From a virus: DNA of 51,613 bases. A program made the position numbers and the translations under genes. How positions within the stretch are numbered: position 1 is the stretch's first letter; each line of letters begins with the position of its first letter. The notes beneath the pieces were generated by a model. That model was not told the DNA's origin, searched no databases, and was given only the letters and a program-made list of their open reading frames with translations. The stretch is taken from positions 1 to 51,613 of the IMG/VR virus record IMGVR_UViG_3300050011_000408. One strand, given 5' to 3'. Positions 12,442 to 48,462 of the stretch are shown in pieces.

Positions 12442-14106
12442 ATGTCGCTATCTTTAGAATCTAAGTCCTATCTTATCTCTGGAATGGGATCTACCCCAGC
12501 TGGTAACGAACTCATTAACGCAATCCAAAACGAATCTGTCCTTTCCGCTGATTCCTTTACGCGCCTTAGAAGCGCCCTTGATGAGGACGATGTTGCATCA
12601 AATTTTCAGGCATGTATCCTTGGAACTTATTCGCTCTCCCCACGAGATATTCAGTTCGTTAAGGATGGCTTCTCCCTTCCTGTTTCTGCCTTGCAGTCAG
12701 TGTTGGATAATTTGGCCGGTGGAGTTCAATCAGCTCCCGCTTTCCCCAATTTTCTTCCTAACATTACTCCAAATGCCTTTCCTAATGCCTTCTTCAACAC
12801 TTCTCCAGTAAACGTCTCCATGCCTGCTGGCTTTGGATTTGCAGTTCAATTCACAGGCCCCGCCCTTCAGCAATGGGACGTTTTGACCTTCCCAGCAGGT
12901 AGCGCCTTCGCTTCCACTGGTCCTGGTAAGTATTTTGAATTGTTTACGGGTGCAAATACCAATCAATACTATGTTTGGTACAATGTTACTGGCGGAAGTA
13001 ATACTGATCCAGCCCCAGCCGGATTTACTGGTATCGAGGTTACTATTGGTGCCCTTGATTCTGCCGCTACCGTTGCTACTAAAACAAATACCGCTTTTGC
13101 AGCTTCCGTAGCTCCTGTGAGTCTATTGGGTGTGGCCGCTACTTATGCCGCACTAGCCTATTCCGCAGTCACAGGCTCTACGGTTGGTTCAGGAAGTACT
13201 ATTACCGGCAATATTGGTATCTATCCTACTGCTGGAACTTTCATCACTAATTTCCCCCCAAGTACCTTTACTGGCGAAGAAGATACTCCTACGCTTAATG
13301 TACCTAAGGCTCAAGTTGCTCAAGCTGCTGCTCAAGCTGCTTATACCTCACTTCAGGGAATGACTCCTACCGGTACTTCTGGAGGCCACATTAATTCCGA
13401 ACTTGGTGGCCAAAGTTTAGCAGCCGGTGTTTATGTTGCTACTTCCGGAACAGCCGGAACATTTACTTTGAATGGAACCCTTACTCTTACTGGTTCTGCA
13501 ACTGACGTTTACGTCTTTCAGACGGCAAGTACTCTTATTACTGGCGGAACTCTCACACCCGTTATTTCTTTGGGTAGTGTATTACCCGGTAATATTTATT
13601 GGGTTGTTGGCTCTTCTGCTACCATCAATGACAGTTTTCCTGGAACTTTCCAAGGTAACGTGATTGCTCAAGCAAGCATTGGTGAAACTTTAGGCGGTAC
13701 CATAAACGGTAGCATGATTGCTCTTACTGGCGCGGTAGTTTTTACTGGCGAGGGTGCTGTCAATGTGACTTCTAGTGGTCCAGGAAGTCCTGGAATGGAT
13801 GATGCCGCTTCTTTTGTTAATGGTAACGCGGTTACGGTTGTTTTGGCTCCATTTACCGCAGCTGTAGCAAGGCCTTTCTTCTCTCTTATTGATGGAACCT
13901 ATCATGGAACTCAGACGGTAACGATCTCTTCTGGTACTCCTGGAACAGCGTTCTACTACACAACGGATGGATCTATTCCAACTGTTGCCAGCACGCTCTA
14001 TTCTGGACCAATCTCTGTGGCTGCTAGCAGGACCATCAGAGTTCTGGGAACTTTGGATGATTTTGCAAATTCTGCCATTGCCAGCGCGACTTACGTAATC
14101 ACCTAA
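12442..14106 (+). CDS. DUF3494 ice-binding-like plus chitobiase-C-domain protein
   Basis: 554 residues, TAGGAG ribosome-binding site, and a terminator after the stop, so it is probably monocistronic. Residues 1-95 are an unrecognised helical region. Residues ~165-225 carry the 'KYFELF.G....YYVWYNV.GGSN' module shared with three tail proteins. Residues ~227-441 match DUF3494 (PF11999, the ice-binding-protein fold): 'AATYAALAYSAVT', 'TGNIGIYP', 'FPPSTFTG', 'DLGGQ'-like 'ELGGQSLAAGVY', 'NIYWVVGSSATI' and 'GTINGSMIALTGAV'. Residues ~475-553 match the chitobiase C-terminal type repeat CHB_HEX_C_1: 'TPGTAFYYTTDGSIPT..STLYSGPI'. I infer a virion surface or fibre-like adhesin; ice binding itself is not shown. 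Confidence 0.85.
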   Translation: MSLSLESKSYLISGMGSTPAGNELINAIQNESVLSADSFTRLRSALDEDDVASNFQACILGTYSLSPRDIQFVKDGFSLPVSALQSVLDNLAGGVQSAPAFPNFLPNITPNAFPNAFFNTSPVNVSMPAGFGFAVQFTGPALQQWDVLTFPAGSAFASTGPGKYFELFTGANTNQYYVWYNVTGGSNTDPAPAGFTGIEVTIGALDSAATVATKTNTAFAASVAPVSLLGVAATYAALAYSAVTGSTVGSGSTITGNIGIYPTAGTFITNFPPSTFTGEEDTPTLNVPKAQVAQAAAQAAYTSLQGMTPTGTSGGHINSELGGQSLAAGVYVATSGTAGTFTLNGTLTLTGSATDVYVFQTASTLITGGTLTPVISLGSVLPGNIYWVVGSSATINDSFPGTFQGNVIAQASIGETLGGTINGSMIALTGAVVFTGEGAVNVTSSGPGSPGMDDAASFVNGNAVTVVLAPFTAAVARPFFSLIDGTYHGTQTVTISSGTPGTAFYYTTDGSIPTVASTLYSGPISVAASRTIRVLGTLDDFANSAIASATYVIT

Positions 14107-14131
14107 TCATTAAATAGTTCAACAATATCGT

Positions 14132-14166
14132 GGACTCGGGATTTCTCTCCGGGTCCATTTTTATTT
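14132..14166 (+). terminator. Rho-independent terminator
   Basis: GGACTCGG (14132-14139) pairs with CCGGGTCC (14149-14156; one T-G pair), followed by ATTTTTATTT. It ends the 12442-14106 transcript. This is the clearest intrinsic terminator in the window. Confidence 0.85.
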
Positions 14167-20389: not shown

Positions 20390-20497
20390 CTACAGCGGGG
20401 CTGGGCCTCAACTCTCCGACGCCGTAGATATCTGGGGAAGCTTTTAGTGTCAGAAGCCCCTCTTAGTTGGAGGGAAGAAGTTGGTTGAATTCCAACC
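20390..20497 (+). other. Compact three-hairpin leader element
   Basis: Between the BPSL0761-like gene and the phosphoesterase gene lies a G+C-richer non-coding stretch. Stem 1: CTAC-A-GCG / CGC-C-GTAG (20390-20397 with 20420-20427). Stem 2: GCTTTT-AGTGTC-AGAAGC (20440-20457) with flanking GGGG/CCC. Stem 3: GGTTG/CAACC (20483-20497), or alternatively GTTGG (20466-20470) with CCAAC (20492-20496). Mutually exclusive pairings ahead of the 20521 ribosome-binding site suggest a regulatory leader; no known riboswitch class is recognised. Confidence 0.4.
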
Positions 20498-20520
20498 CCC
20501 GGAAATATTTAAGGACTAAT

Positions 20521-32157: not shown

Positions 32158-35100
32158 ATGGCAACTAATCCAATACCACCAAGCTCAACTCTCCCACAGC
32201 CTCTTTCGTACGAGGCTATTCTTGGTCAAATGTTATCTAGCTATGCGAGTTCATTGGGAATTAATGATTTAAATACGGGTTCGGCCAATACCGCTTTCAT
32301 GCAACTAGTTGCCTTAATGGTCGCCCGTTCATCTGGGGACATATTCCAAATCCTTCGTGATTTTAGTTTAGATAGAGCAACTGGTCCAGCCCTTAAGAAT
32401 TTGGGTATTGAGTACGGCGTCCCCCCAATAGGTTCTGCCACAGCTACCAGTTCTATTACCGTTACGGACCTATCCTTTCAAAAAATTGCTACCGTTATCT
32501 ATGCTGGAACAAACCCTCCAATCCCAGGATCTACCACAATCAATGTAAGCGACGCCTCACAATTCCCAGCAACAGGTACTATCTATCTAGGTAGAGGTAC
32601 TGTTAATATTGAAAGTCGCCCATATACCCTAATAACTCCTATTGGATCTTATTATGCAATAACCCTTTCTTTGCCAACTACCAGGTTCCATAATATTGGT
32701 GAATCCATAATCCTATCTCAAGGTGGCGTTAGAACCGTTCCTATAAATACAGTAGTCGTCTCTCCCGGTGTTGGCACTACCGCTAGCGTTCAATATTTCG
32801 TAACTAATGCTGGTATCATCTTAGATGGCGAAACAGTTGTTACCAATGTTCCAATCACTGCCCAGCTCCCTGGTGCCACTAATGGCAATGTTCCAGGTGG
32901 CGCTATTTCAAAGTTTTCTGCTAATCCTCCTGGTCTATCCAATGCCAGCGTTACAAACCCTTTGGCAGTAACTACTGGCAGAGATGCAGAAACGGATGAA
33001 CAGTATAGGGTTCGTATTAAAAATGCTTTAGCTTCTACCGGGCTGGGCACAGTTACGGCCATTGAATCGGCCCTCCAGGGAGTTCAGGATCCTACTGGAT
33101 CTGATTCAATAGTTAGTACCGATGTTCTGAATTCTGCTACCAATACTACGGTTTATATTGACAATGGGGCAATTTTAGAAGCAACTCATACAGGAGTGGC
33201 TATTGAGGCCATAGTTAATTCGGCGCTAGGCGGAGAAAAGTTTTTCCAACTAGTAACGGGTGGAACACAAACTTCTGTAACTAAAGCTATTCTCCAAAGC
33301 GTTGCCGCTGAACCCTTTGCTCTTTTCGGTGGTGAATATTTAGAAGTGATTGTTGGTAATGTTACCTATCCCCATGTTTTTGTTGCAGCTGATTTTGCTA
33401 ATCCTGGAAGTGCAACAGCCTATGAAGTTTGCGCTAGTATAAACGGGGACACTTCCCTCAATTATGAAGCAGTTACAGCTGGCAATGGAACTTATGTAGT
33501 TATTCGTCCTGAAGATCAAGTTACCGATATAATTCAGGTAACTACTCCTCCTGTAATCATTCCTCCATTAACTGACGCTAATACTGTCTTACAGTTTCCT
33601 TCACAAAAGGGTGAAACGCTAAGACTGTTTAAAAATGGTCGCCTTCTAACTGAAGATGGCGTGACGGCATCTATATTTACGCAAGACCAAGGACTTTGGT
33701 CTTCAAATTTAGCAACTAATGTAACATTTGGCCTTTCTGTGGATGGTACTGCTCCTGTCACGTACATACTGACAGATGCGATGTTTTTGGCCGAAGGCAC
33801 CTACACCACTTTATCTCGCACAAATAACCTGCAATCTTGGGTAAACGTTCTTAATACCAATATTGCCGGAATTACAGCCTCTATCGTTGGATCAACAATA
33901 GAAATTAGTAGCAATTTAGGTGCCATAGATAGAGCTAAAATTACAGTTGTTCCTACGGCCTTTCCTTCTCTAACAGATGAGGGAGTGATTAGTTCTACCG
34001 ACCTTACTTCTACCGGAATAGCGTCAGACTATATTTTAGACAGGAATACCGCACAAATTGAATTGACTAGCGCCCTAGTAAAAAAAGATTTGCTTTCAGC
34101 TGGTACTTACATTACACAGGCGAACATTCAAGCAGGAAATATACCTTCCGGCCTAGTTACCTTAACTTCAGATGCACATGTTTGGATTTCTATAGATACG
34201 AATGCTACCATCATTCCTACTATACAAAGAGGATCGACTCTATCTGTTTCCACCATATCCCCAACCATTGTTAGATATACTAGCAATGCCAATTCTTTTT
34301 TAAATGTTTTGCCAGGAGATTACGTCATCATTTGGTCAACAGAAATTCATTCCACAGATGATCTGGAAGGAAGAGTCCATGCTGTTTCTGGGAACACGTT
34401 AGACATAAAAATAACTGTTGCCGAGTATTCTCTGGTCACTCCAGTTTCAAATGCCCCATTTGTTCAAGGTTTTGTGGTTGTCAGGACCGCTAATGTTCCT
34501 CAAAAGTTTAAGGTCCAATCGTCTATTTCGGCACAAGATATCTATGCTATTGCCGCCGAGCTTCAACTTCAAACGGACGAAGTTACTTTTGGAGTCGTTA
34601 ACGACGCCAATATTACGGTAACAACAAACACTCTAGGCAATGAAGGCCAGATTACAGTTGTTACTGCCGATTCTTTTGGGGCTCTTTTAGGGTTTGTCGG
34701 TGGAACTAACAGTGTTAGTCAGGAGGCACTAACGGCTTTCTATGAAACTAAAGCTACAACTGCAGAACTTCCATTATTTTTCCATTCTACTATCAGTGCT
34801 GATTCCTATGCTGAACCAATTGATACCTATTTGACCAATTTTTCTTCTACACTTTCTCTGTCTTCTTTTGATCCAAATGAACTTATTAATTTTCTAAATC
34901 CCTATGGAGTTCAACCGGTAATTTCTGGTGGCTCATCGTCTAGCTTATTGGGATCAGCGGCCACCTTTGCCCTCTTGGCAACTTCAATGATAACTAATAC
35001 AGGGCCTAGCACTATTACTGGTGATGTGGGTGTAACTCCTAGTGGTTTTATTACTCCTGGTGGGTGGACGTTAGTAGGGACAACTCATACCAATGATGGA

Positions 35101-38100
35101 GCGGCTGCAACAGCTCGTACCGATGCTCAGACCGCCTATACCTCTCTCATGGGAATGACTCCTACCGGTACTTCTGGAGGCCACATTAATTCCGAACTTG
35201 GTGGCCAGTTTCTTGGTCCTGGCGTGTACGTAGCCACTTCTGGAACAGCCGGAACCTTCACTTTAAACGGAATCCTCACCTTAACCGGAAACGGCGTTTA
35301 CGTATTTCAAGCCCCATTAAGCACTATTATAACTGGTGGAACGGGAACTCCAGTTATTACACTAGCTGGTGGAGCTTCAGCATCCAACATCTATTGGGTA
35401 GCAAATTCTTCAATTACCATAAATTCTGGCTTTACGGGAATTTTCGAAGGTACTGCCATTGCTTCTGCTAGCGTTGGTGACACACTAGGGGGAACTGTAA
35501 ATGGTAGATTAATTGCTCTTACAGCTGCAGTAACTTTGAGCGCAACAACTATAGTTACCGCCCCCGCATCTCTTCCAGCGGGTGGCGTTCTGACATTGGT
35601 GAGTGGTACGGGAGATACAACGATTGCCTATTCTGCATTTACTATACCGTTACAACCTCTTCAGTATGCCTTTACAGTAACTTCTGCAAATGCCACTGTT
35701 GGCGCAGTTTATAGCACCAATGGATTGTTTTTTACAGTTTCTACAACAATTGTAGGTGGTACGACACTAACCTTAGTTGGTGCTGGTCTTATTGATGACG
35801 AACAGCCATCGGAAGAAACCGTCCAAATGTGGGCAACTGCTGGAACTTCAGTAACAATTCTTCCAGAATACCCAGACGTAAGACGCCTTAGGGTTGCCGA
35901 TAGATACTACGTAGCCAACCCCCTAGATTTTGGATATAACGATACTGTTGTCGTTATTGTGGACAACAATACGGTTGGTGAAACTTATACGATGCCTCTC
36001 TATAGGAGAGCTATCGTCAATAGTCTTTGGCCAGCAAACGATTACAGCTTTGACGCTTACGATGTAGATGCGGGGGCAACCGCAAGCTTCGACGATAACT
36101 TTACTGGATTTGATTTCTCAAACTTCAAAGCATTAATGCAAGCCAAATACGTTATCCAATCAGCATTGGTGCCACAAACAGCGCTCTTGCTTAGGTCTAT
36201 TCTTTGGGGTCGTAGTGGTGAAAATATAAATGTTTCCTATGTTTACCCAACATCTGCTAATCAACCTATTGGTTCCAATGTCACCATTACTAGTGCTGAT
36301 AATGTCAGTATAGAAATTAGCTTAATGTCCGGCAATCCAATTAATTTTCCAGGTATTACCTCCAATACACAGTGGAATGTGAGCACAACGGGGCAACGTA
36401 CTTTCACAGTACCAACTGCTGCAGCCGCTACTGTTGGTGCGGTTTATACCAACAATGGCCATATATTCACGGTAACTACTACAAAGGTTACTAGTGTAGG
36501 AACTACTTTAGTTACGACTAGTTCTGGAGTACCCTCGGCTTCTGGAATTCTTACAAAAATTACTGGCACGGGAGATGCAACAATTGCTTTCTCAGCGTTT
36601 GTTTTTTCGGGAATTGATGAAGTAACGTACACCTATGCGGGAAACTATACGTTTACGGTACTACTTGCCGCCGCCGCTACTGTTGGCGCAGTTTATACCA
36701 ACAACGGTCAAACATTTACCGTTACGACCACGAAAGCTGGTGGAACGGGAACTACACTAGTTGCTACCAATTCTGGCGGCGCGCCCACAGCTTCTGGAAC
36801 CCTAACGAAAGTTAGTGGAACTGGCGATACCACAATTGCTTTCTCAGCATTTACTTTTTTAGGCGCAGGCACAGCTCCAAACCTAACTTTAAGTGGGGGA
36901 GAATATGTAACAATTCTTCCTTCTACTGGATTTAATATAGAAGACACGGGAACATTTAGGGTATCTACGGCTGTAGGATTTACTCCCACTTCTACTTCTT
37001 TTAGCGTCCAGGTACCAGCAGGAACTGCATTTGCTCAATCAAATGTTTTGACTATCGCCGCATCAGGCATGAGTTTCTACAACTCTTCCCCAACAACTGC
37101 TGCAGCTATAAATACCTACATTAATAACAACCTAACCCAATACATTACTTCTTCAATAGTAAATGATGGCGGAACTTCCGGATCTGGAGTTATCGCGTTA
37201 AGTAGTTATGAAGACAGCGGTTTCGTAACTCCATTTTACTACCTAAATGACGGCATTAACTGGATAGCAAATGATGGCCAATACGTATTTACCGTAACTG
37301 CTGCAAATGCAACTGAGGGCGCTCTATATACTACCCTGAATAGCAACAATCAGTTACAATACTTTACGGTTATTACGACCATTAGCGGTGGCACGTCACT
37401 TAATATGGCCGGTTCAATTGGAACACCTCCTGTATCAGGAATACTAGTTCTCGTAAGAGGAGATGGAGATGCTGCGATTACCTACTCAGCTGTCTCTCCA
37501 AGACCACAATTTACTTTTAAAGAGCCACTCACTTACGCTACCCCTCCACTTGCTCCTGGATATAGCTTTTTTACGAGTGGGGATGAAGTAAGGCTCATTC
37601 CAACTACCATGGATCAAGTCCAAAGACTGTGGTCTATTTTAGCTGTGACCGGTTTTACTACGGTTGGAACCGTGGAAGTAGTGGATCGCGGTACAAAACT
37701 CCAATTAGCTACGAATACATTAGGATCAGTAGGGGCTATTCAAATTGTTGGTGGAAGCGGAAACGAATACACTGTTCCTGTACTGACTTCCGGTGAACTT
37801 CTCGGCAACAACGAAATGCTAGTTTCTGCAAACAATATCGCAAGTCAGGCTATGGCCAGTGATCAATGGTTCAGGCTTCAAGCGCAAAACTATCAGAATA
37901 AAGATACGGGAATCGGCAATAATACCAGTGTGGCTATTGTAAATAATAACCCTAGTGGTGGAGATTCTACCATAACCCTTCTAAATCAAGAATTGGGCCA
38001 ATTGTATTTCGGTGGTCCTAGAAATAACGTTAGTGTGGAAGGAAGAACTTTTAGAATAGAGAAACAAGGATCCCTCGCTTGTTTGAGTTGGAACGGAGTC

Positions 38101-40917
38101 GGCACTTCTCCTGGTTTTAGCTCTTCTGTAAACTTTAATGACTTAGGAGGTTGGGTAGTTAACGTGTCCGCATTGGGAGTTTATTCCATATCTTCTACTC
38201 CAGCTCCCACCCCAAGCATATTAGCTTCTGCAGCAACATATGCCGCATTGGGAGCTTCTGCAGTTGTGGGATCTGCTATAGCATCGACTCTTACTGGTAA
38301 CTTAGGTATTTACCCTAATAACGTTTCCTCTATTACGAATCTTCCTCCAAGTACTTATACTGGAACAGAAAATGCTGGTAACGCTGCTGCTCAGACCGCT
38401 CAAGCTGATGCTTTGGTTGCGTACAATACTATGGCGGCTGAGGTAGCAACTCCAATTCCTGCCATTTTGGATGGCCAGACTCTTACTCCTGGAGTTTATA
38501 CCGAAATTACGGGAACTTTTAATTTGGCGACTTCCACAGCTGGAACCCTGACCTTTAATGGCGCTGGAACTTACATCATACATGCAACAAGTACGCTTGT
38601 TACCGGTGCCGGTGGAACTCCAACGATGACCCTCATTAATGGAGCCTTAGCGAGCAATATTTACTGGATCGTGGGTAGTTCTGCTACCATTAATTCTGGT
38701 CATACTGGAACCTTCCAAGGTAACGTTATTGCTTCTGCATCCATAGGCGTTACTCTTGGTGGTACTGTAAACGGAAGCCTTATAGCTCTCAATGCCGCAG
38801 TAACATTGAGTGCTGCTACCATTATCAATTCACAGTCTACTTCTGCTCCTTTAGTTGCCGGACATACCAGTTTTTCAGGTCTCACAGTTGGCGATTTAAT
38901 CACTATTTCTGGCCTACTTAATGCTAGTAATAATGGAACTTTCTTCATAACAAGTGTTTCTCCTGACGGACTTTCTTTTACTGTTTCAAATTCATCAGCA
39001 GTTGTAGAAACTGGAACAGCGGTTCTATCTGGAGCTTTTACGGCTACTTCCTCTGTTTCTGAAGGAGATACTTTAATAATCTATCCTCCATTTGCTCCCA
39101 TTAATCAGGGACAATATAGAGTTATCCGTATGTCCGAGGATAGTGTTTGGTATGAAGATCCAAGAGCAAAAGCATTTCCTACGGTTGTAAATATACTTGA
39201 AGAGGAAGTTACCTGTATCGCAAATCCTGTAACTACCACGTTCGACGCTACAACTGGTTTTAACGTCTCCATTTTGAATGGAATTGAGACAATAAGCTGG
39301 AATGGCACCGGAACTCCTATGATGTTCCCCTTTAATCTCCCCATTCAAGGGAATGTCGCTACATTTGGATCAGGATTCCTTAATACTTATACGTTTACTG
39401 TAACATCTGCTACGGCAAATGCTCTTGATACGTACACCGATGGATTAGGCAACACCTTTACCGTAGTAACCTCTATTGCTTCTGGAACCACTTTAGTTAC
39501 TACTAGTCCTGGAGCCCCAACTACTTCCTCTGGAAGTTTAGCTAGAGTTACTGGTTCCGGAACCAACCCAATCCTATTCAGTTCAGTAACAATCACTCCT
39601 GTAAATCAAGGAAGCTTCGTAGTCGTAGGATCTGGTTCAACTCAGCCACAAATTGCTCAATTTATTTTCCCTCTTGCAACAAGTTTCACTCCTTCTGGTC
39701 CTGGACAATATTTTGAGTTATTTAGCGGAACTCCTGGCAATAAATACGCTATCTGGTACAATGTTAGCCCTGGAAGCAATGTAGCCCCTATAGTTCCTGG
39801 ATTTACTCTTATAGGGGTTACTATCAATAGCGGAGATAGTGCCGCCACAGTTGCTTTAAAAACATATACTGCCATTAATGGGTTCATGGTCGGATTAACG
39901 GCTTCCTATGTTTCTCTAAGCAATGTAGTAGCAGTAACAACAACGGCTTCTGCTACTACCTTTCCGCCCACTATCCCCGTTTCTATGCCAACAGGTTTCA
40001 GTTTTGCAATCACACAACTTGGCCAAACAGCATTCATAAGCGTTATAAACCCATCTGCTGTTGTACAAACTGGGATTTCTTCTGTAACTTTTTCAATAAA
40101 TAACCCACAAATTCAATTTTTCCCATATGAATCAACCGTTCCAGGAGACAAATTGGTGGTTAATGGGAACGCTCTTGGTGCAGGGAATGCCGGGACATAT
40201 CAGATTCTATACGTTACTAGCCCAACAACTGTAGTTGTTTCCGGAAATGTCTTTTCAACAATTAGTCCCATAAATTTGGCTGGGAATTCTACTTCTGTGG
40301 CCGTTCAAGAAGGTGTCGCTTATACTGGATACAAACAGGTAGACTTTATATCTCCACAAGAAGGTGTTGCTAATTTTAACAATATTGTGTTTAATACCTC
40401 TGCACAATATGAAAAAATTGATCCAGCTGCAGATATTGGGATGGTCGCTCTCAATAAGTTAAATTTTCCAGTGACCGTAAGAACCGGGATAGATGCCTAT
40501 AACTATGACACGGGTTTGATCGGACAAGCCAATAGGGTTATTTATGGAGATCCACGAGATCCTGTGACATATCCAGGAGTTAATGCTGCAGGAACAAATA
40601 TTTTTATTAGAGAGCCGCTATTAAAAAGAGTCTTTATTGCTCTAGCCATTAGAACGAATATCGGGGTTAGTTTTGCACAGATTGCCAATCAAATACGGTC
40701 CTCCGTTTATGCTCTGGTATCATCCAATTTGATTGGTGAATCGATTGATTTGTCTTCTATAGTGGAAACTGTTAGACTAATACCTGGTGTGACATCTGTC
40801 GTGTTAACTAGCCCTACTTATGATGTAGCTAGCGACGAAATTGTTTTGGTTACTGGACAGAAGGCCATAATAATTAACCAGACATCCGATATCACCGTAA
40901 GCCTCATAGGGTCATAA
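32158..40917 (+). CDS. Giant baseplate J/gp6-like protein with two DUF3494 domains
   Basis: 2919 residues; no clear ribosome-binding site before the ATG. Residues ~1-320 are baseplate-J-like: 'ANTAFMQLVALMVARSSGDI', 'TGRDAETDEQYRVRIKNALA'. Residues ~2750-2919 ('GVSFAQIANQIRSSVYALVS', 'SSIVETVRLIPGVTSVVL') are the matching C-terminal part. Between them are at least 2,400 residues of inserted beta modules: DUF3494 at ~930-1135 and ~2020-2225; five ~70-residue 'VGAVYTNNGQ.FTVTTT..GTTL' repeats (~1171, 1416, 1498, 1709, 2412); and the 'FELFSG....WYNV.PGSN' module at ~2499-2581. A wedge subunit normally has 300-650 residues; the insertions may be displayed on the baseplate surface. Confidence 0.85.
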   Translation: MATNPIPPSSTLPQPLSYEAILGQMLSSYASSLGINDLNTGSANTAFMQLVALMVARSSGDIFQILRDFSLDRATGPALKNLGIEYGVPPIGSATATSSITVTDLSFQKIATVIYAGTNPPIPGSTTINVSDASQFPATGTIYLGRGTVNIESRPYTLITPIGSYYAITLSLPTTRFHNIGESIILSQGGVRTVPINTVVVSPGVGTTASVQYFVTNAGIILDGETVVTNVPITAQLPGATNGNVPGGAISKFSANPPGLSNASVTNPLAVTTGRDAETDEQYRVRIKNALASTGLGTVTAIESALQGVQDPTGSDSIVSTDVLNSATNTTVYIDNGAILEATHTGVAIEAIVNSALGGEKFFQLVTGGTQTSVTKAILQSVAAEPFALFGGEYLEVIVGNVTYPHVFVAADFANPGSATAYEVCASINGDTSLNYEAVTAGNGTYVVIRPEDQVTDIIQVTTPPVIIPPLTDANTVLQFPSQKGETLRLFKNGRLLTEDGVTASIFTQDQGLWSSNLATNVTFGLSVDGTAPVTYILTDAMFLAEGTYTTLSRTNNLQSWVNVLNTNIAGITASIVGSTIEISSNLGAIDRAKITVVPTAFPSLTDEGVISSTDLTSTGIASDYILDRNTAQIELTSALVKKDLLSAGTYITQANIQAGNIPSGLVTLTSDAHVWISIDTNATIIPTIQRGSTLSVSTISPTIVRYTSNANSFLNVLPGDYVIIWSTEIHSTDDLEGRVHAVSGNTLDIKITVAEYSLVTPVSNAPFVQGFVVVRTANVPQKFKVQSSISAQDIYAIAAELQLQTDEVTFGVVNDANITVTTNTLGNEGQITVVTADSFGALLGFVGGTNSVSQEALTAFYETKATTAELPLFFHSTISADSYAEPIDTYLTNFSSTLSLSSFDPNELINFLNPYGVQPVISGGSSSSLLGSAATFALLATSMITNTGPSTITGDVGVTPSGFITPGGWTLVGTTHTNDGAAATARTDAQTAYTSLMGMTPTGTSGGHINSELGGQFLGPGVYVATSGTAGTFTLNGILTLTGNGVYVFQAPLSTIITGGTGTPVITLAGGASASNIYWVANSSITINSGFTGIFEGTAIASASVGDTLGGTVNGRLIALTAAVTLSATTIVTAPASLPAGGVLTLVSGTGDTTIAYSAFTIPLQPLQYAFTVTSANATVGAVYSTNGLFFTVSTTIVGGTTLTLVGAGLIDDEQPSEETVQMWATAGTSVTILPEYPDVRRLRVADRYYVANPLDFGYNDTVVVIVDNNTVGETYTMPLYRRAIVNSLWPANDYSFDAYDVDAGATASFDDNFTGFDFSNFKALMQAKYVIQSALVPQTALLLRSILWGRSGENINVSYVYPTSANQPIGSNVTITSADNVSIEISLMSGNPINFPGITSNTQWNVSTTGQRTFTVPTAAAATVGAVYTNNGHIFTVTTTKVTSVGTTLVTTSSGVPSASGILTKITGTGDATIAFSAFVFSGIDEVTYTYAGNYTFTVLLAAAATVGAVYTNNGQTFTVTTTKAGGTGTTLVATNSGGAPTASGTLTKVSGTGDTTIAFSAFTFLGAGTAPNLTLSGGEYVTILPSTGFNIEDTGTFRVSTAVGFTPTSTSFSVQVPAGTAFAQSNVLTIAASGMSFYNSSPTTAAAINTYINNNLTQYITSSIVNDGGTSGSGVIALSSYEDSGFVTPFYYLNDGINWIANDGQYVFTVTAANATEGALYTTLNSNNQLQYFTVITTISGGTSLNMAGSIGTPPVSGILVLVRGDGDAAITYSAVSPRPQFTFKEPLTYATPPLAPGYSFFTSGDEVRLIPTTMDQVQRLWSILAVTGFTTVGTVEVVDRGTKLQLATNTLGSVGAIQIVGGSGNEYTVPVLTSGELLGNNEMLVSANNIASQAMASDQWFRLQAQNYQNKDTGIGNNTSVAIVNNNPSGGDSTITLLNQELGQLYFGGPRNNVSVEGRTFRIEKQGSLACLSWNGVGTSPGFSSSVNFNDLGGWVVNVSALGVYSISSTPAPTPSILASAATYAALGASAVVGSAIASTLTGNLGIYPNNVSSITNLPPSTYTGTENAGNAAAQTAQADALVAYNTMAAEVATPIPAILDGQTLTPGVYTEITGTFNLATSTAGTLTFNGAGTYIIHATSTLVTGAGGTPTMTLINGALASNIYWIVGSSATINSGHTGTFQGNVIASASIGVTLGGTVNGSLIALNAAVTLSAATIINSQSTSAPLVAGHTSFSGLTVGDLITISGLLNASNNGTFFITSVSPDGLSFTVSNSSAVVETGTAVLSGAFTATSSVSEGDTLIIYPPFAPINQGQYRVIRMSEDSVWYEDPRAKAFPTVVNILEEEVTCIANPVTTTFDATTGFNVSILNGIETISWNGTGTPMMFPFNLPIQGNVATFGSGFLNTYTFTVTSATANALDTYTDGLGNTFTVVTSIASGTTLVTTSPGAPTTSSGSLARVTGSGTNPILFSSVTITPVNQGSFVVVGSGSTQPQIAQFIFPLATSFTPSGPGQYFELFSGTPGNKYAIWYNVSPGSNVAPIVPGFTLIGVTINSGDSAATVALKTYTAINGFMVGLTASYVSLSNVVAVTTTASATTFPPTIPVSMPTGFSFAITQLGQTAFISVINPSAVVQTGISSVTFSINNPQIQFFPYESTVPGDKLVVNGNALGAGNAGTYQILYVTSPTTVVVSGNVFSTISPINLAGNSTSVAVQEGVAYTGYKQVDFISPQEGVANFNNIVFNTSAQYEKIDPAADIGMVALNKLNFPVTVRTGIDAYNYDTGLIGQANRVIYGDPRDPVTYPGVNAAGTNIFIREPLLKRVFIALAIRTNIGVSFAQIANQIRSSVYALVSSNLIGESIDLSSIVETVRLIPGVTSVVLTSPTYDVASDEIVLVTGQKAIIINQTSDITVSLIGS

Positions 40918-40918
40918 T

Positions 40919-43135
40919 ATGGCAGTTACAACACAAAAACAGGAATTGGCTCGTCTAAGAAGTTACCTTAATCCGTTTATTCGTGGGAATACTACTACAG
41001 CCGTACTCAATTCTTTAGCAACCGCTTCCTCTTATTTGGTAAATTCAGTACAGGCCGTAAATGACAGCCTCTATGTTGTAACTGCCCAAGGAGTATACTT
41101 AGACCTACTTCTGGCCAACTACGGCATTTCCAGGGATCCAACAGTCGGTATTGGTGATGAAATCTTTCGTACGATTGGTATTCAAGTTAAGAATCGTAAA
41201 CAAGTTAGGGATCTAATTAACAATATTCTGGATGCCGTTTTTGGAGACGAATTCGTAAAAGCTACTAGCAATGCTCAGAATGTAGAGCCTTATGCTCTTG
41301 TGGATGGCGACACTTTAGTCATAAATTTTGATGGTGCTAATACCAGTACTATTACTTTTGACTCTGCCCAATTTACCAATATTCAACTTGCTACTGCCCA
41401 AGAAGTTGCCGATGCCATTTCTATTGGGTTAAGCGCCCTCAATGTTTCTGGAAGTGCCATCCTAAACAATGATGGTAATGGAAACTATGTTCAATTGCTT
41501 AGCGATACTATTGGAGCAACCTCCACTATCACAGTTTTGGGTGGAAGGGCCCAGAACGTACTCCTTTTAAATTCTCTAGAGCAAACTAACGGCAATTCTT
41601 CCACCCACTGGCAACTTCTTGGTGAATTAGGTGGAATAATGAGATTTACTTGGATCAGTGGCGCTGACCCTAATTTGGGTAAATTGCACATGGGAGACTA
41701 TGTAAATATCTACGGTGGTGGATTTGCGGCATCTTCAAATCAGGGAACTTTCCCCATAGTAAGTTTTGGCGAAAATTATTTTGAAGTTTACAATCCCCAA
41801 GGAACTTCTGGATCGGTAACGCAAGGGCTCTTTGAGCCTGGAAATATTGACAATGTTGTTCAATTCTATTCCCCTCTTAGGGAAACTATTTTAAGCAAAC
41901 AGTATTATGGTGCTGTATATCAGACCCAAAGCAACATATTACAGATTTTCATGCCTGCTACCACTCAGGTTGTGTCCAAAAGTAGGATTGGAGCGGCATT
42001 TTTACATGGGGTAACCGAGCAACCGGTAGTACAGCTTATATTTCCTGCAGGTAACACTCCTGCATTTCCTCCCCCTCCTTCTCCGTATCCTCCTTATCCT
42101 CCATCTCCGTTAGTTCCTCCACCATCTATCGGTCCAGCTGAATATTTCTTAATTGATGATTTGGGAAGTGCCTATCAATATTATGTTTGGCTCAATGTTT
42201 CTGGTGGAAGCAATACGGATCCGGCTCCTAACGGATTTACTGGTATAGAAGTTACCATTAATAGTAGTGATTCAGCCGCTGTGGTCGCCAACAAAGCCTT
42301 TATTGCCATAAGCACTGTTCTTCCAACACTGACATATACTGTAGTGGACAATGTTATAACTATGACGGTCGTTGATCCTCTTACGGTTGCAGACGCAGGA
42401 CCAACTACTCCAACAACATTAGGCCCTTATATTTTTGACACACAGCAAGGATTCGTAGTTGGCGGTGCGGTTACAACTTTAACGGAAAGTGTAAATGGGG
42501 GAGTGAGCAATTCTATAATATTCACCACCCCCAGTACGGCTAATGCTACGGCTGGTGCAAAATATACCAATAATGGCCAAGTATTTACGGCAGAAGATAC
42601 TATTATTGCTGGACAATATCTTACTGCGAATAGCACCGGTAGTCCCTCTCCTTCTGGAACACTCACGTTGATAAGCGGTAGTGGGGATAGCACGATAACC
42701 TTTACAACATATAGTCAAAATAACGGGAATATAATGGCCGTGGTAAGCTCTGATGGATTTCCAAATACTAGCGGATATCTCATAATAGGCTATGGTACTG
42801 AACTGCAAGAAGGGCCAATACCATATATAGCCGTACCATCTAGCGGAACCATCCTCATCAGCCCCGTATATTCAATTCAACAGAACCACCCAGTTGGATC
42901 ATCCGTATTCCTAGTTACGCAAAAGACTCCAATAACGTTACCTGATGATGGAAGCTATTATCAACCCTATTTGACGGATACCGCAGTTGGCAGAGTTTAT
43001 GCACAAAATTTGATAGATTCTATAACTGCGGCAGGAGTTACTGTTATTTATACGATTTTGTATCCCAATCCAATCGGTTTGGGCGGTTGGGAAAATCCAA
43101 TAGCAGACGAGATTGCTTACGTGTACGGACCATGA
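40919..43135 (+). CDS. Large baseplate/tail protein with shared modules
   Basis: 738 residues, one base after the J-like stop. The start 'LARLRSYLNPFIRGNTTTAV' with 'AQGVYLDLLLANYGISRDP' resembles wedge proteins that follow gpJ. Residues ~376-411 are a proline-rich linker (FPPPPSPYPPYPPSPLVPPP). Residues ~404-495 carry the 'YYVWLNVSGGSNTDPAPNGF' module and ~530-600 the 'AGAKYTNNGQVFTAEDT' repeat, both shared with the giant protein. The C-terminus 'YAQNLIDSITAAGVTVIYTI' is again of the gpI/gp7 style. Probably a wedge-fibre connector. Confidence 0.6.
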   Translation: MAVTTQKQELARLRSYLNPFIRGNTTTAVLNSLATASSYLVNSVQAVNDSLYVVTAQGVYLDLLLANYGISRDPTVGIGDEIFRTIGIQVKNRKQVRDLINNILDAVFGDEFVKATSNAQNVEPYALVDGDTLVINFDGANTSTITFDSAQFTNIQLATAQEVADAISIGLSALNVSGSAILNNDGNGNYVQLLSDTIGATSTITVLGGRAQNVLLLNSLEQTNGNSSTHWQLLGELGGIMRFTWISGADPNLGKLHMGDYVNIYGGGFAASSNQGTFPIVSFGENYFEVYNPQGTSGSVTQGLFEPGNIDNVVQFYSPLRETILSKQYYGAVYQTQSNILQIFMPATTQVVSKSRIGAAFLHGVTEQPVVQLIFPAGNTPAFPPPPSPYPPYPPSPLVPPPSIGPAEYFLIDDLGSAYQYYVWLNVSGGSNTDPAPNGFTGIEVTINSSDSAAVVANKAFIAISTVLPTLTYTVVDNVITMTVVDPLTVADAGPTTPTTLGPYIFDTQQGFVVGGAVTTLTESVNGGVSNSIIFTTPSTANATAGAKYTNNGQVFTAEDTIIAGQYLTANSTGSPSPSGTLTLISGSGDSTITFTTYSQNNGNIMAVVSSDGFPNTSGYLIIGYGTELQEGPIPYIAVPSSGTILISPVYSIQQNHPVGSSVFLVTQKTPITLPDDGSYYQPYLTDTAVGRVYAQNLIDSITAAGVTVIYTILYPNPIGLGGWENPIADEIAYVYGP

Positions 43136-44732: not shown

Positions 44733-47714
44733 ATGGCAATACTTTCTACAGGAAATCTTCTTTCCGAACAACGCTACGATATAAGCGACGCCAGGCGTGT
44801 CGAATCTGCTGTACGCAACGATTTTGATACCACTGTAACGTCCATATTCACCAATACTTCCCAAGGCTATATAATCAGAGGGTTTTATCTAAATACTGCC
44901 GGAACTATTGGTTCTGCAGCCAATAATCTACAGTTGGTTGTCGATCCAGGCGCTGTCCTCCATATTGCGGCTTCTGTCTCAGGTACGATCTTTCAGACTC
45001 CAGTTGGAACTCCACCCCAGACCCTAAACAACACCACTAATACCAATGTTTCCGGATCTTTCACCCCAGGTACCAATAATTACGTTGGAATCGACTATAA
45101 TCGTTTTGCGGATCCTACTACAGATGTGACCAAATATATTTGGAATGCTTCTGCTAACGATGACTTGCCAACCATAGCTCCTGCCGCCCAGACCCTAACT
45201 TATAAGATCGTCATAACCAATTCCGTATGGGCCGCAAACGTTCTCCCTATAGCCATAGTAAATGTGGGCTTTAATGGGGAGGTACTGTACATTACAGAGG
45301 CCAGATGGATGCTTTACAGTCTGGAGACTGGTGGCCTTAATCCTAATCCCAACTTCGTCTATCCTTGGACTGCTGGACGCCTTCAGCCTGCTACTACACT
45401 ATCCTCTCTCAATCCTGCAGCCACTCCTTTTATAGGTGGTGATAAGCAGATTACCTGTTTCAAGGATTGGGCTGATGCTATAATGACAGAATTGTTGGGA
45501 ATCAAAGGAACACCTTATTGGTTTTCCGGACCTAACGTAGGCCCTGGCGGCGGACCTTTACCAACAATTCAATCCTTGTTTCAAGATCTTGGTAATACGG
45601 TTATTACTGGCAGCGGAGAAATATCTAATGGTATTTTGCCAGACTCCGTACCTGTTTTGGCCACAACTGGAAATATTATAGCTAATAGCAACCAACTTAC
45701 TAATTTAGGTTCTACGGTAGGTTTGTTGATTGGGCAATCTATTTTTGGTAATGGCATTCGTCCAGGAAGCACAATCGTTAGTATTATTGGCACAACTGTA
45801 ACGATGTCTCAAGTTGCAGCTTTCAATGGCACTGGAATTGGTGCATCTTTTTATTCTCCTGGCGTTATTACGGCTCCTGGACAGATTAATTGGGACAAGC
45901 CGATTGATATTAGAGTTATTGGTTCTTCCCTTACATATGTTTTAGCTGCTAATCCCACTTCTACTGACATTACTCTTGCAGATGATGAAGTTGCCTACAT
46001 AGTTCTTGATAGAGAACAGGTGATTGCCCCAAATTTGATCTTTACTACCGGATCCAAAGTAGTGTCATCTGTGGGAAGCGTAGTTTGGACTACCGGACTT
46101 CTTCCTGGCGACTATATTAAAATCTCTACCGATACTACTTCTGGTTATTACCAAATTGCCCCAATAAGAGATATTACATATCCATCTGGCGGTATTCTTA
46201 GTGGCTTTGCCGTTGGACTTGCCACTGCTGTTTTGGTTGCGGATAGTACTGGTCCAACTGGCACTCAAGCGCAATTTGCTTTTGGCAGCTATTCTACTTC
46301 TCCTTTTCCTTCAACAAACAGAGACATCTTTATTGCTCCTCGTGCATTAGTCCCTGTGAATGGAAATATTTTCTGGCTATTTCTACGAGAAGATAATAGT
46401 GGCAGTCCAAGAGTATACATAAGATTTTTAGCTCAAGAACTTGACAATGGCGAATCTGTTGAGGTTAGTGGGACCACCTCTTTAGAGGTTCTCCAATATA
46501 TTGGATCTCCATCTGCTAGCACTTCTTCACCGCAATATGTGGCGACGTTGACCCCAGGATCTTTGGCCCAGATCACCAATATTACTATTGGTTCTGCTGC
46601 AACTATTACTAGTAATCAATATTTTACTCTCTATTCCGCTGGTGATTTCAGAAAATACTATGTTTGGTTCAATAAAGACGGTACTGGCGTCGATCCTATG
46701 GTTCCTGGATATAACGATCAGATCCAGGTCGCCATTTCTACTGGTATGACCAGCACTTCAGTCGCCGCAGCATTAGCCGCCGCATTCAATGCTGCACCAG
46801 ATTCCGATTTCTATGCAGTCGCCGGAGCAGGTACTGTAGTTGTAACAAATAGATCTTCTGGAGCTTCTACAAGTCCTTCCAATTTTAATGTGGGCGCACC
46901 ATTTGCCATCTCTGTGTCTCAATCTGGGACTGGAACTGGAAATTTTGTTATTAGAGATGGAGACAGCCTAACTCTCGCTATTAAGAAATTAGATGAAGCT
47001 ATCGGAGTTGCTGTAGCTCTTTACGATGAATCGATAGATATCGTTGCCTCTGGTGGAACTCCCCCAGCTACCCCTTCTAATTCCCCAGTTTCCATAAATG
47101 GACCTCTTCCTTCAGGTACAATTATCGCTCTCCCTAATAATTCTAGAATGTCGAATATTGGTGAGTTCTATGTTGTAGGAGATGGAAGACTAGAAATTTA
47201 TCTAAATGGAGTGCATCTAAGGCTGGGTGATGGGTGGTCAGAGGTAGGTGCTTTTGGGTCTTCCAGTAATTTAATTCAAATCTTAAGTACTTACGCAGAA
47301 GCCCTTGTAGTTGGCGACTATCTTGAATTCATAATTCATCCTGTCGGTGGTTCTCAGGGTCTTGGAACTCCCGGTCCTGCAGGACCAACCGGCGCAACTG
47401 GATCTCCAGGTGCAGATGCATTAAATGGCCCAATTACGATCTCTACTAAAACCTCAAACTATCCTGTCCTCTTAACGGACAAATTCTTATTGGCCGATTG
47501 TACTACTGGTCCATTAACGTTTACTCTCCCTACTGCGGCTAGTGCCATGAGCAAGGTGTTCTACTTTAAGAAGATAGGGTCTAGTTTAACTAATGCTATG
47601 ACGATACAGGCAAACGGAGCAGAACTTATCGACGGATTTAATACTAAATCTACTACAATATTGTATAAAGAATATGCAGCTGTAAGCGATGGTGTTTTTT
47701 GGTGGATTTTTTAA
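44733..47714 (+). CDS. Tail fibre protein with collagen-like segment
   Basis: 993 residues. The first 350 residues are beta-rich ('NTSQGYIIRGFYLNTAGT', 'YKIVITNSVWAANVLPIAIV'), as in fibre attachment domains. Residues ~630-700 hold the shared 'YYVWFNKDGTGVDPMVPGYN' module. Residues ~879-895 are collagen-like G-x-y repeats (GTPGPAGPTGATGSPGA), followed by a short C-terminal knob ending 'VSDGVFWWIF'. Collagen-like trimer segments plus a C-terminal knob are classic for receptor-binding fibres. Confidence 0.8.
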   Translation: MAILSTGNLLSEQRYDISDARRVESAVRNDFDTTVTSIFTNTSQGYIIRGFYLNTAGTIGSAANNLQLVVDPGAVLHIAASVSGTIFQTPVGTPPQTLNNTTNTNVSGSFTPGTNNYVGIDYNRFADPTTDVTKYIWNASANDDLPTIAPAAQTLTYKIVITNSVWAANVLPIAIVNVGFNGEVLYITEARWMLYSLETGGLNPNPNFVYPWTAGRLQPATTLSSLNPAATPFIGGDKQITCFKDWADAIMTELLGIKGTPYWFSGPNVGPGGGPLPTIQSLFQDLGNTVITGSGEISNGILPDSVPVLATTGNIIANSNQLTNLGSTVGLLIGQSIFGNGIRPGSTIVSIIGTTVTMSQVAAFNGTGIGASFYSPGVITAPGQINWDKPIDIRVIGSSLTYVLAANPTSTDITLADDEVAYIVLDREQVIAPNLIFTTGSKVVSSVGSVVWTTGLLPGDYIKISTDTTSGYYQIAPIRDITYPSGGILSGFAVGLATAVLVADSTGPTGTQAQFAFGSYSTSPFPSTNRDIFIAPRALVPVNGNIFWLFLREDNSGSPRVYIRFLAQELDNGESVEVSGTTSLEVLQYIGSPSASTSSPQYVATLTPGSLAQITNITIGSAATITSNQYFTLYSAGDFRKYYVWFNKDGTGVDPMVPGYNDQIQVAISTGMTSTSVAAALAAAFNAAPDSDFYAVAGAGTVVVTNRSSGASTSPSNFNVGAPFAISVSQSGTGTGNFVIRDGDSLTLAIKKLDEAIGVAVALYDESIDIVASGGTPPATPSNSPVSINGPLPSGTIIALPNNSRMSNIGEFYVVGDGRLEIYLNGVHLRLGDGWSEVGAFGSSSNLIQILSTYAEALVVGDYLEFIIHPVGGSQGLGTPGPAGPTGATGSPGADALNGPITISTKTSNYPVLLTDKFLLADCTTGPLTFTLPTAASAMSKVFYFKKIGSSLTNAMTIQANGAELIDGFNTKSTTILYKEYAAVSDGVFWWIF

Positions 47715-47715
47715 T

Positions 47716-48462
47716 ATGTTTGGGATATTATATATAATTACTAATAAGATTAATGGTAAAAGGTATGTTGGACAAACTATACAGACCCTGCAGAAGCGCT
47801 GGATTGCTCATTGTTGCAACAGTAATCCTAGTTCTCTAATAGGGAAATCCATCAATAAACGGGGAAAAGAAAATTTTGATATAAGAATATTATCTATATG
47901 CAATTCCTTAGAGGAAATGAATAGTAGGGAAATCTATTATATAAAATTGTTCAATACCTTGAATCCAAATGGATACAATCTAGCTCCGGGTGGAAGAAAT
48001 TCAATAACATCAAAAGAGACAAGGGTTAAACAGTCTAATTCAGCAAAAGGAAGAATAGTTTCTTTACAGACAAGAGAAAGAATATCCATTTCCAATAAGG
48101 GCAAAAAAAGAAGTTTAGACGCCATTCGTAAAACGGCAGAAAAAAATATTGGGAGAAAGGCCTCAAATGAGACTAAGGTTCGCCTATCAGAATCCCATAT
48201 GGGCTATAAAATGCCGGAATCACAAAAAAATAATATTTCAAAACACAATAAAGGCAAAAAACGCACAGTGGATCATAAGAAAAAATATTCTAATTCTAAA
48301 AATCATCTAAAGATTAAAGTTTTTTGTCCAGAGATCGATATGGTGTTTGAATCCATAGGAGCGGCAGCGGAATATACAGGTGCCTGGCGTACCAATATCG
48401 GTAAGGTATTAAGCGGAGAATTAAGAAAAACTAAAGGACTTACCTTTTCGAGGATTACCTAA
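47716..48462 (+). CDS. GIY-YIG homing endonuclease
   Basis: 248 residues from the ATG at 47716, one base after the fibre stop. 'GILYIITNKINGKRYVGQT' is the GIY-YIG catalytic motif (here GIL-Y...YVG), with 'RWIAHC' (Arg) and 'NSREIYYIKLF' (Glu) completing the nuclease site. Three DNA-binding NUMOD3-like stretches follow ('KETRVKQSNSAKGR', 'QTRERISISNKGKK', 'NETKVRLSESHMGY'), and a NUMOD1-like end ('FESIGAAAEYTGAWRTNIGK'). AT-richer and Lys/Asn-richer than its neighbours, which agrees with recent transfer between two fibre genes. Confidence 0.92.
   Translation: MFGILYIITNKINGKRYVGQTIQTLQKRWIAHCCNSNPSSLIGKSINKRGKENFDIRILSICNSLEEMNSREIYYIKLFNTLNPNGYNLAPGGRNSITSKETRVKQSNSAKGRIVSLQTRERISISNKGKKRSLDAIRKTAEKNIGRKASNETKVRLSESHMGYKMPESQKNNISKHNKGKKRTVDHKKKYSNSKNHLKIKVFCPEIDMVFESIGAAAEYTGAWRTNIGKVLSGELRKTKGLTFSRIT

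Follow-up and report, generated by a model that had tools for sequence, protein, structure and literature searches.

The window, as we call the whole stretch of 51,613 nucleotides of viral DNA analysed here, encodes on its plus strand a 554-aa protein in which an N-terminal anchor and a module that we term W are followed by a DUF3494 domain and a CHB_HEX_C domain (Table 1). Both domain identities had been claimed in a first-pass annotation of this DNA, and the profile search against PF11999 and PF13290 that it proposed returned both above their curated cut-offs: PF11999 at aa 238-434 (6.9e-30; 104.7 bits, cut-off 28.7) in an ORF spanning exactly 12442-14106, and PF13290 at aa 485-546 (1.5e-15; 57.3 bits, cut-off 22), with PF13287 (Fn3_assoc) also above cut-off. 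As sequence matches only, the window DUF3494 is recovered by the solved ice-binding protein 4nu3 (2.8e-11), and a profile of phage domains matches EfcIBP 6eio (8.5e-39). The anchor has no Pfam match and matches no known family, the W module has no Pfam or NCBIfam match, and the 554-aa protein is without a PHROG match. Downstream of the gene, the terminator noted previously corresponds to a terminator-like hairpin of 11 pairs with a T-rich tail; no sigma-70-like promoter was found 5' of the gene on the plus strand.

Table 1. Features of the window that carry or flank the mobile modules
Feature	Position	Strand	Evidence or remark
554-aa protein: anchor + W module + DUF3494 + CHB_HEX_C	12442..14106	+	ORF and Pfam
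N-terminal anchor, aa 1-95	12442..12726	+	homologues mostly near major head protein gene; no Pfam match
W module, aa 126-221 (YYVWYNVxGGSNTDPAPAGFTG)	12817..13104	+	shared with baseplate and tail proteins
DUF3494 / PF11999 Ice_binding domain	13153..13743	+	Pfam, tree and B-face mapping
CHB_HEX_C_1 (PF13290), overlaps Fn3_assoc	13894..14079	+	Pfam
Terminator-like hairpin, then T-rich tail	14130..14158	+	hairpin of 11 pairs
2919-aa baseplate-J protein with inserted modules	32158..40917	+	Baseplate_J match (Pfam)
Insertion missing in G003 orthologue: DUF3494 copy 1 (34975-35553) and V-module pieces	34918..35790	+	comparison with G003
V module, ~70 aa, inserted relative to G003	36379..36609	+	
V module, inserted relative to G003	36640..36861	+	
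V module, inserted relative to G003	37273..37485	+	
DUF3494 copy 2 of baseplate-J protein	38248..38823	+	domain search
V module, inserted relative to G003	39379..39594	+	
W module copy, baseplate-J protein	39616..39921	+	match to aa 126-221
W module copy, 738-aa tail protein	42131..42295	+	match to aa 126-221
993-aa collagen-type fibre protein, without the DUF3494 insertion found in G003 orthologue	44733..47714	+	

Inserted modules in the tail genes

The module that the 554-aa protein had been said to have in common with tail proteins is the W module: it has counterparts in the 2919-aa baseplate protein (match at 1e-17) and the 738-aa protein (9e-16), and a weak one in the 993-aa fibre protein (0.007). 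The baseplate protein itself contains two further DUF3494 domains, absent from the earlier annotation. Relative to its counterpart in the syntenic contig G003, it carries one extra DUF3494-bearing insertion and four extra V modules of about 70 aa, while the fibre protein of G003 holds a DUF3494 inside a V module that its window counterpart is without. The V module (FTVTxAxATVGAVYTNNGQxFTV...GTLTKVSGTGDTTIAFSAF) returned nothing above a Pfam cut-off and no NCBIfam match; it also occurs in the loop of the tail sheath proteins described below (L281, L289 and L297). Among other features of the window, a homing endonuclease (phrog_314, 3e-45) lies at 47689-48462 between tail fibre genes, and the sole tRNA found, a tRNA-Thr with anticodon AGT (20431-20504), overlaps the start of a phosphoesterase-like ORF at 20467.

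Homologues of the anchor protein

The architecture of the window protein recurs in two anchor proteins, L019, of 543 aa on a contig of 162 kb, and L044, of 536 aa; the surroundings of L019 are syntenic with the window. Elsewhere the anchor is joined to other combinations of domains. L004 and L005 (641 aa) comprise the anchor, W, CHB_HEX_C, an Ig-like stretch recognized by eye and a different DUF3494; L230-L232 have the anchor, W, two CHB_HEX_C domains and a bacterial-type DUF3494; L107 and L109 (322-325 aa) consist only of the anchor and a bacterial-type DUF3494 that joins cellular rows of the tree with 100% support; and in L066 and L067 a circularly permuted DUF3494 is placed within the W module. 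CHB_HEX_C stands beside DUF3494 in most anchor proteins, and DUF3494 is present in all nine IMG/VR contigs retrieved by scans with the anchor sequence, one of which used a narrower alignment, that of nine divergent members being too variable. Going by architecture and tree placement, the DUF3494 domains of the anchor homologues were acquired from several sources.

The gene context of these homologues points to the capsid. Two places before the anchor gene of L004, a 467-aa gene encodes a major head protein (phrog_752, 1.6e-41), and homologues of this protein (81-99% identity) are encoded a few kb or less from the anchor gene in G002, G013, G021, G035, L066, L230, L231 and L232. No head gene was seen next to the anchor gene in the window, G010, G023 or G027; IMG/VR contigs are often fragments. 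By a simple hydrophobicity heuristic, rather than a signal-peptide predictor, a signal-peptide-like N-terminus was detected in none of nine phage anchor proteins, versus 31 of 35 cellular DUF3494 proteins.

Circularly permuted domains in the tail sheath

A group of DUF3494-bearing proteins of 900-960 aa matches the tail sheath family phrog_279. Their DUF3494 is circularly permuted, the N-terminal coil following the C-terminal coil at a distance of 0-3 residues; the permutation test covered 15 proteins, two of them the anchor proteins L066 and L067, and gave i-E-values of 4e-10 to 6e-17 for the N-terminal part. In the solved fold the coils stack in the order 1-6-5-4-3-2 (PMC7277481), so that the first and last coils are adjacent, which suggests why permutation works. 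Sheath scans yielded 100 distinct full-length proteins, 25 with DUF3494 (typically about 925 aa) and 75 without it (about 721 aa); the permuted order was observed in 22 of the 25, the N-terminal part being undetected in the other three. Two sheaths that are 71% identical over 709 aa (L233 and L241) differ by one clean 202-aa loop insertion, and on the sheath tree the presence of DUF3494 changes at least four times (seven by parsimony). The loop (L233 aa 178-379 and homologues) is an insertion hot spot, occupied by DUF3494 in 25 of the 100 proteins and by V modules in others. A second sheath family (phrog_2839, L092 385-3717) carries DUF3494 in its normal, unpermuted order, apparently through an independent insertion.

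Phylogeny and exchange of the phage domains

A profile built from five phage copies retrieved 68 IMG/VR loci, and only ten loci, at no more than 41% identity, from the cellular genomes of the genome_contigs collection. Trees were obtained by 'quick' searches; of the 104 rows in one such tree, 52 from phages fall into one clade (SH-aLRT 95), joined there by only one MAG row, L103, on a long branch. The domain was also acquired separately, to judge from several further phage rows placed among cellular ones. The L103 domain (426-1826) lies on a contig of a Bacteroidota MAG and may be phage DNA that entered the MAG in binning. Deposited phages in INPHARED gave no DUF3494 match with either a phage-type or a bacterial-type query, and CHB_HEX_C matches only; a homologue reported in Synechococcus phage S-SKS1 was not recovered with PF11999. 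One structural protein of an Acidobacteriota phage, Tunturi_2 gp17 (L018 10831-14673), contains a pair of CHB_HEX_C-like repeats whose identity to that of the window is about 45%.

Single contigs harbor multiple copies, with about four separate DUF3494 domains in each of three contigs of 162-171 kb (G010, G021 and G027). Identity between the window protein and L019 is 74% in the anchor and 74% in W, yet only 46% in DUF3494 and 55% in CHB_HEX_C; between L019 and L044 it reaches 79% in DUF3494 and 80% in CHB_HEX_C. The window DUF3494 groups with 99% support with copy 1 of its own baseplate protein, a sheath copy (L030), L028 and L029, and a single clade for the four anchor-protein copies was rejected (AU p = 0.029), whereas a single origin of the sheath copies was not (AU p = 0.31), in AU tests performed after the tree was seen. 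On this tree evidence DUF3494 has been swapped between slots, the window copy being nearer to its own baseplate copy and to a sheath copy than to those of its orthologues. Recent DNA-level copying among the DUF3494 domains of the window was ruled out, since their DNA is only 71-73% identical over parts.

Conservation of the binding face

We mapped the ice-binding residues of AnpIBP (PMC7277481) onto the DUF3494 alignment. In the phage clade, strand b4 of the binding face (B-face) reads S-S-A-T at 96-100%, and the Thr of column 4 is present at 96% in b1, 96% in b6, 86% in b5, 100% in b4 and 61% in b3. The outward B-face columns have an entropy of 0.65 bit, versus 1.46 bit for other S/T/A columns (0 of 20,000 permutations), a difference to which regional conservation of the C-terminal coils could partly contribute. 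The window copy retains SSAT in b4 and has V, G and I at column 4 of b6, b5 and b3, with Thr in two of five strands. Ala in column 2 has been tied to efficient ice binding, and S/T/G to soil-type sequences (PMC12337378). Given its conservation, the B-face of the phage clade is likely to be a ligand-binding face; ice is a plausible ligand for the clade and, with fewer Thr, a weaker candidate for the window copy than for the clade.

Discussion

The domain identities proposed in the first-pass annotation stand, and its suggestion of a role in virions or adhesion is now supported by a capsid-linked anchor family, by copies of the domain within proteins of the sheath, baseplate and fibres, by an N-terminus unlike a signal peptide and by a conserved binding face. 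Its picture of a single odd fusion protein was too small: the 554-aa protein exemplifies something broader, a mobile domain used across the virion. As far as sequences allow, uncultivated contractile-tailed phages appear to carry copies of an ice-binding-type domain in head-linked, sheath, baseplate and fibre proteins, an arrangement suggestive of an adhesive virion coat whose parts can be exchanged. PF11999 has been counted among the adhesive domains of bacterial fibrillar adhesins (PMC8286594).

The 554-aa protein probably belongs to the capsid surface of a contractile-tailed phage, either as a Hoc-like decoration or as a short head fibre. We infer that the N-terminal anchor holds it on the head of the virion, with W, DUF3494 and CHB_HEX_C facing away from the particle and forming a replaceable adhesive payload. 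Counting also the DUF3494 copies of the baseplate, of the fibres and, among relatives, of every sheath subunit, a particle would present many weak binding sites. The flat Thr/Ser/Ala B-face could bind an ordered, extended surface, and virions might as a result be kept near their hosts or protected while freezing.

An alternative explanation overlaps with this one, the ligand being the only difference: a host-surface or environmental polysaccharide would be bound, with CHB_HEX_C as partner, and ice would be irrelevant. We consider it quite possible, if not probable, in view of the CHB_HEX_C domains next to DUF3494 in most anchor proteins, of those in a structural protein of Tunturiibacter phages and of the partly degraded B-face of the window copy; the EfcIBP/AnpIBP-like Thr ladder is nevertheless retained across the phage clade, and an insertion in the sheath is unlikely to act in receptor binding. 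More tentatively, and with some doubt, a contractile phage lineage with contigs of up to about 177 kb may cover its head, sheath, baseplate and fibres in ice-binding domains, and ice binding or recrystallisation control may help it through freeze-thaw or keep it in host-rich liquid veins.

Alternatively, DUF3494 might be a passive spacer, a stable bulking module without a ligand that has spread by virtue of its close ends and easy insertion into loops. Its insertion into numerous loops, permuted in some and in normal order in others, and the same behaviour of V modules fit such a spacer, which we regard as unlikely because conservation is much higher at outward B-face residues than in other S/T/A columns and because the finding of DUF3494 in all nine matches of the anchor scan, from several sources, suggests selection for the domain itself. 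Finally, an auxiliary gene, whose ice-binding product would be made in or released from the infected cell and shield the host against freezing, a function suggested for PF11999 in three Arctic marine vOTUs (PMC11515562), would suit a single gene with its own terminator among non-structural genes and a Pfam family already annotated as an AMG, but is very improbable for a protein that lacks a signal-peptide-like N-terminus, has homologues encoded near the major head gene and shares its W module with tail proteins, in phages whose sheath, baseplate and fibre proteins contain the same domain. These phages provide a directly testable case of environmental adhesion or freeze protection of virions.

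Comparison with known systems

The phage domains resemble DUF3494 ice-binding proteins (EfcIBP 6eio, AnpIBP 7bwx and FfIBP 4nu3) in scoring above the Pfam cut-off and in their profile matches to solved structures, and they resemble AnpIBP in the Thr/Ser/Ala pattern of the B-face, including the equivalents of S153 and T156 (PMC7277481). They differ from these proteins in being phage-borne, without a signal peptide, inside virion-type proteins and in a phage clade of their own, in being permuted in sheaths, and in the fewer B-face Thr of the window copy.

T4 Hoc combines a conserved capsid-binding domain with variable Ig-like domains, and the anchor proteins share with it and with Hoc-like head fibres a conserved end, here putatively capsid-linked, variable surface domains and, probably, an optional adhesion-type role (PMC10385173). 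Unlike in Hoc, the anchor is N-terminal and has no detectable kinship to a known family, and the payload is DUF3494 and CHB_HEX_C rather than Ig-like domains only. A capsid-binding domain homologous to that of Hoc was not found among PHROG matches of the protein or Pfam matches of the anchor. By analogy, the best reading is that the 554-aa protein would work most like Hoc, and we do not claim membership of the Hoc family.

The 'ice-binding-like AMGs' described from phages (PMC11515562) likewise rest on PF11999 matches on phage contigs; they were read as host cryoprotection, whereas the context here is structural. In the library searched, no paper joined 'DUF3494' and 'phage'. Matches of phage contigs to PF11999 should not be read as host-helping auxiliary genes without a check of their context. 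Fraser et al. are said to have described, in 2006, promiscuous Ig-like domains in phage structural proteins. Like those domains, the modules reported here come and go among related phages in proteins of the tail, baseplate and head; unlike them, the exchangeable building block is a domain known for ice binding and expected to fold as a beta-helix, used in part in a circularly permuted form within a loop of the tail sheath.
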